DNA of 64,000 nt from positions 82,647,895 to 82,711,894 of the forward strand of contig CM056995.1 of assembly GCA_029891345.1 (NCBI GenBank). The letters are read 5' to 3'. Of this stretch, positions 5,005-47,184 are shown in pieces. The notes beneath the pieces are model-generated. The model saw only the letters and a list, made by a program, of their open reading frames with translations, had not been told where the DNA came from and did not search any database. The position numbers were made by a program, and so were the translations under genes. The DNA is from Dryococelus australis. Taxonomy: Eukaryota > Arthropoda > Insecta > Phasmatodea > Phasmatidae. Numbering within the stretch: the stretch's first letter is position 1; every line of letters starts with the position of its first letter.

Positions 5005-6640
5005 TATGAATAATTTCTTAGAGTGTACAACTCTCACAACAAATGAAACTGGTAACTTATATTTGTTTTTAGTGCCGGCAAACCCCACAACCTGTAGCAG
5101 AAGCCAGTGGTAAAACTATTATAACCTACGCCCAAGAATCCACTAAGCGTTGTTGAGACTATACCTACTATACTGTACTTTCGCGCGCGATGTTTCGTTT
5201 GAAAGGAAGAATAAAAATGGGGAAGTCACAGGAAATATTTTTCAGTACTTTGAAACTCTAGCGATATTACAAAAATTAATATAAAAATTTCAGTTTTCGT
5301 TGAGGGGGCATGTTTTAAATGTGATTTAATGATTCAGCGTTTAGGGCAGCCCAGAAATATTTGAAAGACAGTCGCAACCAAGCAATTTACAAGGAATGCT
5401 TGGTTTTATAAAATAGACTTATGAAGTTAGTTTCAAATACTTCCACGTACGGATTTCTGTTATTTCTGCTGCATCCCATATTGAGCAGTTGCAACCCCTG
5501 ATACTCAGCAAGGCGAGCCGTAGTCGATACCGTTCGCTCAAGTGATACCTAATATTTCACCTGCGTCGATAAATCGATAGGCCTCATACCTTTAATAGCC
5601 TCCGTAAAATTTCATACAGTTTACGTTGCGACAGGCACGTAAGGTATAAAGAAAACCCACACATTCGTTTTATATAATCGATGTGCAGATAATCACGCCC
5701 TAGATACAGCTTATTTTAAGTGTGGATAATAATAGGCTGTATTTACTGTTACTTCAAATTACAATTAGGGAGGCCGCCATATATAGGAAATCATCTCGAT
5801 TTTAAGGTACTGAGGTTTAAGAGATTTCTCAAAATACAGACTAGATTAAACCAAACGAATTTCTGAGGCGAAGGATATAAGTTGTCTTTATATTTCCAGA
5901 CAAAGTAAAGTTTAAGTATAACAAATGAACCAGAAAGCGGGATATCAAGCCGACTAGTTTAGGCAACTCTTATGAAAAATTAAAACAGCCAAAAGTCAGC
6001 ATTTTTTATGAAGATTCTGTAAAGCCACTGGAATTTTTTTTTACATAATCGCATTATCAATGAGGTTGTTTTCCCTGCGTATAACTTCTTTGCAATGCCA
6101 ATTTTTTTTTTTTTTTCGATCTTAAAGGCCTACTCAAAGCGATCCTCAACAAGAAACAACGACCACCCGGCTTGCATCATGAAACCATCGATCACCACTG
6201 CGGATTGGCGCTGGGAAACAGATAAATGTCCGCCAGAGAGCTAACAATGAATGGGCGTGACACTATCTATATATCGATGGAGGCAAGTGTATAATGCGAG
6301 ATATTAAGGCAGCGACGTCACGACGCGACGGCTGCCGTCGAGCGGTGGTTCGTGCGTGAGGTGCTCTCAATAATTCACATCCAGCCCTGCGCTCCCCGCT
6401 ATACCCACTCTTAACCGCTCGATACGGCCGCCATTACGTCTATTCTTTGTGAAAAAAAGGGTAGGGGGACACAAAGCCCCTACTGGCCTGGCCAGCATGT
6501 AGGCTCCCGAGTTCTGTCAAGCATCGGACCAGGAAGCAACGCACACGAGTACAGAGCTCACAGCGTCTTTGCTACGGTTTGGGATGTGCATTATAACGTG
6601 AGAACTTTTGAAACATACGTTAGAAAAAAATCACTTCTTG
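5005..6640. other. no gene recognised
   Basis: AT-rich, then a mid-GC block at about 6120-6600 (purine-rich GTAGGGGGACACAAAGCCCC). Nothing assignable. Confidence 0.5.
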
Positions 6641-6844: not shown

Positions 6845-6893
<49 letters not shown>

Positions 6894-7180
6894 TATATAT
6901 GTGTGCTTTTGTTATATTAAGCGTATTCTTGAGGGGAAAAAATTCGTAAAAATGGTCGAATATCGCATTTTTAAAACTTGCCTATGCAGTTTCCTTAAGA
7001 GACAAGAGAAAAGTATAAAGATACGGACGTAGTTTAATCCGTGGTCTTTCATATCGTGTAAGAAAACCCCTGTGTTACAGATCTAATTTGCACAGTACAG
7101 CGCCATGACAGAAACACTGCACGCCTTGCGCGTAGGAGAGATAAGACACTAGGCGTGCGTGTTACTGTCGCCCGTATCGC
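6650..7180 (-). mobile_element. family E repeat carrying an (AT)n tract
   Basis: The reverse complement matches 25705-26200 on both sides of a dinucleotide tract at 6846-6902: CAGTGTTTCTGTCATGGCGC and GTGCAAATTAGATCTGT on one side, GGGCCATAGATAAT on the other. The left boundary is approximate. Confidence 0.55.
6846..6902. repeat. (TA)n microsatellite
   Basis: TA units with one phase slip (TATAATAT) inside a family E repeat. Confidence 0.97.
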
Positions 7181-43974: not shown

Positions 43975-44262
43975 ATTTGAAGAGTTGATATAAAAACCGG
44001 GCTAAGTGCCAAAATTGTTACTTTTGAGATATTTACATTTTTTTTTTGTAAATCATTAAAAATACACATTAGGTGTTCTAGTAATTATTTATTGGTTCAC
44101 CAGTACCAAATAAATAGGGAGGAAAACCGAATTCACCAGTACCTTCAAAATCACACAAATATTATCAAACCACACAAACTGTAGAAGGTACTAACAACCA
44201 ACACATAATAAATAAATAATGGGCTACGTGACAAGCCACAGAAGCAAGGTAATGTTCACCAG

Positions 44263-44332
44263 GAATGTTATTATACGTTAGAAGTTAGTAATAATTAAGA
44301 ATGTTATTATACGTTAGAAGTTAGTAATAATT
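44263..44332. repeat. 36-bp tandem duplication
   Basis: Two adjacent copies with a 36-base period, each starting GAATGTTATTATACGTTAGA, are practically identical (44263-44298 and 44299-44332). They lie in the 3' non-coding part of the Sola-like element, so the duplication is young relative to the decay of its gene. Confidence 0.85.
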
Positions 44333-44533
44333 GCATAAGACACGTATGTCTTGTTTCCTTTTTGACAAATAAAAAATAAGTTGCCTAGTCTCATCTATTT
44401 AACAGTTCTTCTTAGAAAGGTTTGTAATCACTTTACAGGCGAGGGAGCATCTGTGCGATGTCATTCTTCTTTTCTTCGGAGATCCTCGAGTAGCAATGTA
44501 TTGGGGGTAGCATATACTTTATTGCCTCGTTCG

Positions 44534-46415
44534 TTACATTTTTTTCAAAATGTGAAAATATGACCAGCTTTCGAACTCAGACAATGTTGTTCGTGTTCTC
44601 AGAGTTCCGGGATCAGCCTTCGTCACGTTGAACTCCCGGAACTTTGGAAATCTGTACTTTAGATGTGGTAAGTTCTTTATGTGCAGTGCAGCAGTCTTAA
44701 AGTCGTAGAAATCATCTGGTTGCATTAGTGTTACCATAAAAGGATTTAAGTGGTTAGCAGTCACCATTACTTTCATTAAGTCTGTAGGTACTTGACAGTG
44801 TTCGACACGTTTTCGTTTCTCTACAAGAGCAAAATCTCTGTCACGACTTAAAAATGAGTGTCCTGAAACTAAGTACTTGTGGTTCACTTCATCAACATAC
44901 CCCTTACATAGCAAATAGCATCACAAGAATAAAAGCATGCAGTTTTTATTCTGATCTACGCAGTTGTCACTCCACACAGTTAATGTTTGCTTCCTAGTCA
45001 CAACAGATGTGATTGCCTTGAGAATACATGACGCCACTTCGTTACCTATCACCACGCCCACTTAACCCTTCATGCTAAATAAACATGTGCCCTCTGTTGT
45101 TGTCTCCAACATGTACACACAAGTTATAACACGATAACTGACGCAAATAATACATTTGGGAATATGTTAATGCTGGAAGAGACAGCACTTGCTGAAGATC
45201 CACTAAAATAGTGGTACAGTCACTTGATGGAAGCTGTGATCTGGCGTGATCCTCCTTCATTGTCTTCATAGCCTTTTCAGCTTTGCCGTGATGAAGCTCT
45301 AACTTCTGTACTGCTTGTGTGTTATTGTAACTTTTTATTTCCATATGCAATCGATCACATGTCCCGCATGTGTTAGTTCATGGATGGTGGAATGCTAACA
45401 TAGGTAACTTGCTCTTGAATATTTCATAATAGTAACGGTACGTTCCAAAAGAAGTTAGGTACTGTTCTATGAAGGCAAGGTACAGTTTATTAATGCTCAA
45501 ATCTGGGCTGAGCTATTCTTCCTTACTTTTCATTCTAGAGTAATGACTCTGCTCCCGAGGAAAGTTTGTATGTGTTTGATAACGACTGCTTCGTCTTCTA
45601 CTGAAAATTTCCAGTGTGTTGTTTTGTTACCTCGTTTCTCGGCGTACACTGTTTCACCATTCTTTTTCGCTTTAACTAAGGTCTCAATTCTTCTCCTAGT
45701 CAGTTGCATATTATTTCTTTGCCATTAGGTAAAGTGTAGGAAATAGTGGTATTTTGGTGGCTTACCTCTTCACCATCTTTCTTGCCATGCCTCCTTCACT
45801 GTACTGCGATGGTGACAAGAAGACCCATTAAATACGAATTTTGTTTTTCATTGTCCGCCATAGAATGAAAGTCCATGAAATGCTTCAGTTTGTGGTCATG
45901 AGCGATATTGTTGCATCCATGCTTACACGTGCAGGTAATCTAAAACAGAACATAAAAGAGTGATTATTGTAACTTCTATATTAGTAGGGAAAATTATGTG
46001 CGATAGATGCAAACTAGTAAATTTCCAATGGCGTTGCTTTAGTAAAAGTGGTACCCGACTAATGTGAATGGACTTTTCAATAACTCTAACGGTTCTACTG
46101 TGAGTTGTGCCATACAATATGCTGTCGTTTTGCAACTGCTGTAAAAGTAAAACAAAAATTAAGTGTAGCAATATTGATGGTTAAAATCCATTTTAAAAAA
46201 TGACTATATTTCGAACCAGTACAGATGCGTGTAATAAGTAGTTCGTTATGGTACAGCTTACCTGTTCTGCAGGCTGTGTTTTAGCTGGCACTTCTTTTTT
46301 GCTGGCTATTTACATACATTTCGCCAGAACATCTCCGGTTCTTTTTTTTTTTTCATTTCAGAATGAAAGTTGCTTTACCTTTACGTCTTTTCCTGCACGA
46401 AGAACACCCTTCCAT
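44534..46415 (-). pseudogene. decayed transposase-like gene of the Sola-like element
   Basis: Homologous-looking pieces run in order on the minus strand across several frames. They are a possible first exon from ATG 46415 (Cys- and Arg/Lys-rich, followed by donor-like GTAAAG), another donor-like GTAAGC near 46261, and an exon from about 45940 after a TTTTAG acceptor. The latter encodes a CTCKHGC zinc-knuckle-like start and a MADNEKQNSYLMGLL segment. Then follow a HIQTF...SHY-type segment (about 45480-45570), a TNTCGTCD segment (about 45370), DLQQVLSLP with an RQLSCYNLCVH segment (about 45120-45205), and WSDNCVDQNKN (44957-44974). A VSGHSFLSRDRDFALVEK segment (44820-44870) and a C-terminal frame ending at 44534 complete it. 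At least two frameshifts and several stops separate these blocks, so it cannot be functional. This block order occurs in multicopy insect proteins that behave as transposases. Confidence 0.7.
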
Positions 46416-47124
46416 AATGCTGGATATTAATATTTGGTTCCTTCAATAAAAACAAACAACAACTAACTGAAACAACGACGCAGCGATTTAAACACTCATC
46501 TCTGACGTTCTGGCACTTATCCCGGTTTTAATGTACACACGCCGGTGGACATGACCACCAGCACAATCTTGTGGTGAACAGTTGAACTACTACAAAAGCA
46601 GTTAGTTATTTATGTTATAGGGGCTGGCACATAGAGCACATTTCAACAACAAAAAATCTGTTTACATTTTGGCACTTAGAGAGGTTTTTATATCAAGTCT
46701 TCATTTGTAAAAATACTTGACACAGGGAAAAAAATTCCTTTACTTTAGAGCCATAGCTATGCACATCCGATTTTTTTTCCCCCGATTGTGACAGGGGTTC
46801 TTCGGGACAAGCTAATACAAAACTTTTAAGGTTCACTGATCAAAACACTGCTTGGTAACAACCTCACCACACAGAAAATTAGTTTTCGGAAACGAAACAG
46901 CGGCTTCCTTGTGCGTGTGGCGTGTACTGCCTGCAGGCTGCCTTTTATCATTTTTTTTAGAACTAAACAGCTTTTGTCGAACAATAAAAAAAAAACAATA
47001 CAGATACACATCGGCGAGTAAAAACATCTCTTTCGTCTGTATTCTGAAACACAATTGATGTTTTTACACCGTGCGAGGCAAAAAAAAAAAAGTAGTAAGT
47101 GGCGAGCATATACTGGAAATGTTC

Positions 47125-47184
<60 letters not shown>
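47125..47184. repeat. (TA)n microsatellite
   Basis: About thirty TA units. The Ile-Tyr open frame across it is an artefact. Confidence 0.98.

Follow-up and report, generated by a model that had tools for sequence, protein, structure and literature searches.

A complete transposon copy of 2724 bp lies at 43979..46702 of the window (the whole 64,000-nucleotide stretch of the Dryococelus australis genome that was analysed). Its limits were set by terminal inverted repeats, by a target-site duplication and by other copies in the genome. With a probability of about 0.9, it is a dead cut-and-paste transposon that was joined into 4-bp staggered Y-AWWT-R sites by a DUF7869 transposase with a D-D-D active site, encoded by its own minus-strand gene, and whose family spread in a single old burst before it decayed. 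The useful outcome is the link from the DUF7869 domain to precise element ends; judged by description, the element is probably related to Sola.

Extent and ends of the element

The left terminal inverted repeat (37 bp, GAAGAGTTGATATAAAAACC..., plus strand) occupies 43979..44015 and starts at the end common to the genome copies. Its partner (37 bp, minus strand) was found at 46666..46702 by blastn against the window, with 33 of 37 positions identical (E 1e-6). The sequence ATTT stands immediately outside both ends, at 43975..43978 and 46703..46706. A complete 2.7-kb element with these exact ends, 37-bp inverted repeats with four mismatches and a perfect 4-bp duplication had been proposed in the earlier note, and all three points were borne out, the first by the genome copies as well.

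A further copy of the end motif lies inside the element at 46508..46532, inverted relative to the left end and direct relative to the right end. It is perhaps an extra transposase binding site, a putative role suggested by its likeness to the ends. The window copy also contains a perfect 36-bp tandem duplication (1.9 copies, 44263..44332), which is absent from the 22 other aligned copies. Elsewhere in the window, (TA)n microsatellites were observed at three places (2200–2256, 6846–6900 and 47127–47184), with 28.5 to 29 units each.

Genome copies, target sites and empty sites

The genome (3,415,067,245 bases in 646 contigs) was searched with the element. At least 40 copies were found, window included, when the best 40 of 100 first-look candidates were scored. 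These 40 were dispersed over many contigs, and 12 of them, window included, matched bases 1–2724 in one piece. The 39 others were 83–88% identical to the window element in their main piece and were extracted with 400 bp of flanking DNA. The window flanks alone matched none of the 39 extracted copies. Homology stopped at, or within 14 bases of, 43979 and 46702 in all 39: matches crossing the element ends extended at most 14 bases past the left end and at most 10 past the right.

An end was considered as recognized when at least 15 of its 19 bases matched; 22 of the 39 copies passed at both ends and the 17 others were left out. Further copies with 4-bp duplications, as predicted from the window copy, were indeed present among these 22. 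The duplication was exact in 17 and had one mismatch in four; in the last copy (L045), the flanks showed no duplication beyond a 2-base match. The exact duplications were AATT (10 copies), AAAT (five), AGTT (one) and ATTT (one); AATT makes up 0.9% of the four-base words in the window. Duplications of 5–8 bp were found in none of the 22 copies, and in none of 41 when 10 and nine copies of two related families (L070 and L099, see below) were included. A pyrimidine preceded the target at 25 of 32 recognized ends, and a purine followed it at 21 of 28. The target is therefore written Y-AWWT-R, a form that the site of the window copy also has.

Empty sites were searched for with the joined flanks of 14 copies, and 40 of 6727 candidates were scored. 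All 40 cross a junction unbroken: 38 at the L031 site and two at the L023 site, giving unbroken empty sites for two of the 14 copies. The 12 other copies are uninformative, because the repeat at the L031 site took 38 of the 40 places scored among 6727. When the flanks of the window copy were joined, they matched only themselves in this genome, and no empty site was found for this copy.

History of the family

Twenty-three near-complete copies (the window copy and 22 others) were aligned and used to build a tree. The 22 differ in membership from the 22 used for the duplication count: L018 and L019 are in the alignment, L039 and L045 are not. The mean pairwise difference was 10.1%. The tree was star-like, with a mean terminal branch of 0.059 and a mean internal branch of 0.001, and this shape indicates that the family was amplified in one old burst. 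The two inverted ends differed by means of 12.8% and 14.2%, compared with 10.1% for the whole element; being more variable than the element, they show no sign of having been kept since insertion. The internal end-like repeat differed by 9.2% among copies against 12.0% in the neighbouring stretch, a contrast that is small and was not leaned on. No intact copy was seen, since the longest open frame among the 39 extracted copies did not exceed 415 codons. The L045 locus (G000:C3:20304282-20308842) carries a tandem array, with units about 72 bases apart that each match element bases 834–912.

Transposase gene of the window copy

The broken transposase gene lies on the minus strand and probably extends over 44391..46415, with its ATG at 46415 and its stop codon at 44391–44393. 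Its coding sequence is split over three frames and interrupted by stops. The four protein blocks previously picked out (CTCKHGC, DLQQVL, WSDNC..QNKN and GHSFLSRDRDF) were all recovered on this strand; they lie in different frames, with stops and frame changes between them, in agreement with the description of the gene as broken. A coding range of 44534–46415 had been given for it. The limit at 46415, where the ATG stands, was retained; the limit at 44534 was replaced by one near 44391, because the sequence for the C-terminus known from other copies goes on there in a different frame.

Two 3′ splice sites are probable. The first, TTCTGTTTTAG at 45940..45941 (minus strand), precedes the largest exon, and its AG is kept in 19 of the 23 aligned copies, counted by eye. 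The second, TTTTACTTTTACAG at 46139..46140 (minus strand), lies upstream in the gene, and its AG is kept in 21 of the 23 by the same count. A donor-like GT that follows the first exon of the window copy was considered as an intron boundary. The other 22 aligned copies have no GT at this position, so no boundary was called there.

DUF7869 protein and predicted active site

DUF7869 occurs in many unexplained eukaryotic proteins. The second half of the window protein, read through with X at the stops, matched this Pfam family (PF25273) with 50.1 bits (E 3.3e-13; cut-off 26), and the profile scored 49.2 bits at the window locus in a scan of the genome. The longest single-frame piece alone, at 19 bits, stayed under that cut-off; the assignment rests on reading through the stops and on the relatives. 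The domain was matched in nine of the 10 members of set A1. The best 150 of 1555 candidates in the scan of this genome were all over the cut-off, and the same scan gave no match in 14 control genomes. In a protein search of this genome, the best 150 of 1257 candidates ranged from 100% down to 28% identity. The protein had been likened to a multicopy insect family, and its multicopy nature is confirmed within this genome.

Pfam and NCBIfam scans of the window protein and its relatives returned no named transposase domain, and neither these scans nor the PDB searches gave a match labelled Sola. Pfam matches to Thioredoxin_2, DUF4595, NinB, HexPS-like and DUF4762 were weak, below the cut-off where one was shown, and were judged to be due to chance. 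No solved structure matched by sequence, and profile searches of the PDB gave either nothing or five weak, unrelated matches at E 0.68 or worse. Patterns matched 8, 42 and 48 stretches of viral and prokaryote collections, among which no relative was confirmed. A motif scan gave no viral stretch and four bacterial ones, whose translations were unlike the window protein by eye, and a plasmid collection scanned with one protein yielded no relative. These collection scans relied on short motifs that distant relatives could escape. No paper in the literature searched uses the word DUF7869. Pfam gives the family no function; here, a protein whose second half, with its stops read through, scores over the curated cut-off, as do relatives from other families, is encoded inside mobile elements with precise ends. 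DUF7869 is probably the transposase of transposons that duplicate 4 bp.

Seven proteins, six of them 25–78% identical to the first, were aligned. The alignment suggests a D-D-D triad in the DUF7869 transposase. In the window copy, its predicted residues fall on the minus strand at 45198..45200 (first Asp, VDLQQVL), 44966..44968 (second Asp, WSDNC..QNKN) and 44840..44842 (third Asp, GHSFLSRDRDF). The predicted spacings are 76 and 42 residues in L065, a copy of the window family. D277, Q282, N283, the G-H-S motif and the C-D-R around D319 are invariant in all seven proteins, and the first Asp occurs in five of them and is altered in L099 and L062. L098 and L099 have Lys in place of the Glu that follows the third Asp, which makes D319 the more likely third catalytic residue.

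Other DUF7869 elements of the genome

Eight further loci were extracted (L068–L073, L098 and L099). L068, L069 and L070 form one family, L072 belongs to a second, and L098 and L099 to a third. The proteins of these families are DUF7869 proteins 25–45% identical to that of L065, and their elements have 5′-GA ends, as has the window family. The DUF7869 domain, the 5′-GA ends and an AATT-type 4-bp duplication are common to the L070, L072, L099 and window families, whereas the inverted repeats differ.

The L070 family (2751 bp, ends GAATAGTTAC..., 40 of 111 candidates scored) had exact 4-bp duplications in eight of the 10 copies picked for having both ends matched, seven AATT and one AACT; seven were counted instead of eight when a longer end string was used. 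Exact 4-bp duplications are lacking at the loci L068, L069 and L070 themselves. In the L099 family (2712 bp, ends GAACCGCTTATTG..., 40 of 124 candidates scored), the duplication was exact in all nine copies picked in the same way, and AATT flanks L099 itself. The L072 element (3480 bp, ends GATGACTTAAC...) has AATT on both sides, and other copies of its family begin or end at its termini. Relatives with a duplication of a different length would have spoken against the assignment in the earlier note; the L070 and L099 families duplicate 4 bp as well.

End-like internal repeats also occur within L068–L070. A TGCCA block recurs near the ends of otherwise different families, in L072 (1776–1808), in L099 (2242–2275) and in the window element (43979–44015); it is perhaps a putative common contact of the transposases. 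The DUF7869 locus L071 (2569–5739) has an inverted repeat, GGTAGGCCGGAAYARCGTTGTAAC, with no recognizable 4-bp duplication, and is a possible exception to the 4-bp rule. No inverted repeat was found in L073. In L098, the DUF7869 element is surrounded by a 38-bp inverted repeat (CTGTTCACTATAAAGTGAGCAC...) at 1537–1574 and 5209–5246, and this pair perhaps belongs to a different transposon nested with it.

Relation to known superfamilies

The earlier note had called the element Sola-like. We lean towards Sola as its superfamily, the likeness being one of description. As far as its description in PMC10741241 goes, Sola (Sola1, Sola2 and Sola3) has a DDD transposase, a 4-bp duplication, a size of mostly 2–9 kb and inverted repeats of 11–1124 bp. 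The window element has the 4-bp duplication likewise, its 2724 bp and its 37-bp ends fall within these ranges, and a D-D-D pattern is predicted for it from the alignment. This fit with Sola as described there (PMC10741241) argues against a distinct superfamily or subgroup that would use the same mechanism and be marked by DUF7869 transposases, 5′-GA ends and AWWT targets. Such a separation, which we regard as doubtful, is favoured by the scans without a named transposase domain. It is also favoured by the collection scans without a confirmed prokaryotic or viral relative, since Sola is reported from bacteria too (PMC10741241), although scans with short motifs could miss distant relatives. We consider it unlikely that DUF7869 marks a large cut-and-paste group apart from the named superfamilies, in which it would provide the catalytic domain, with its D-D-D triad, and in which the ends would be 5′-GA and the targets palindromic (Y-AWWT-R).

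Another superfamily of similar duplication length, namely Ginger, Chapaev (CMC) or Academ, was judged very improbable. All three have duplications of about 3–4 bp. Ginger carries an integrase-like (rve) domain, and neither this domain nor another named transposase domain was among the Pfam matches of the window protein and its relatives. The window element is also short, with one recognizable protein, unlike Academ. piggyBac and Kolobok have TTAA target duplications and were rejected on the exact duplications found here (AATT, AAAT, ATTT and AGTT, not TTAA); hAT, which has an 8-bp duplication, was rejected because none of the 22 copies has one. We give almost no weight to the view that this is a segmental or satellite repeat that does not move, with inverted ends due to chance. 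The sequence is repetitive and nothing else favours this explanation, whereas the copies are dispersed over many contigs, do not have the window flanks in common, and show 4-bp duplications and empty sites.

Proposed mechanism and meaning

In the cut-and-paste mechanism that we propose, the DUF7869 protein encoded on the minus strand of the element would act as transposase. With a D-D-D active site, probably held in an RNase H-like fold, it would cut at the 37-bp ends, and the end-like internal repeats, if they bind the protein, would perhaps help this cutting. The element would be joined into the target at Y-AWWT-R sites, by way of breaks staggered by 4 bp, and gap filling would produce the 4-bp target duplication. 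Amplification would have taken place in one old burst, and decay would have followed.

Elements of this type may already be listed in Repbase as Sola. With the link to precise ends, the domain of unknown function DUF7869 gains a concrete role, with ends, a duplication length and a target that can be tested. Multicopy genes bearing the domain can be annotated as transposons, and their non-autonomous relatives can be looked for by end sequences.
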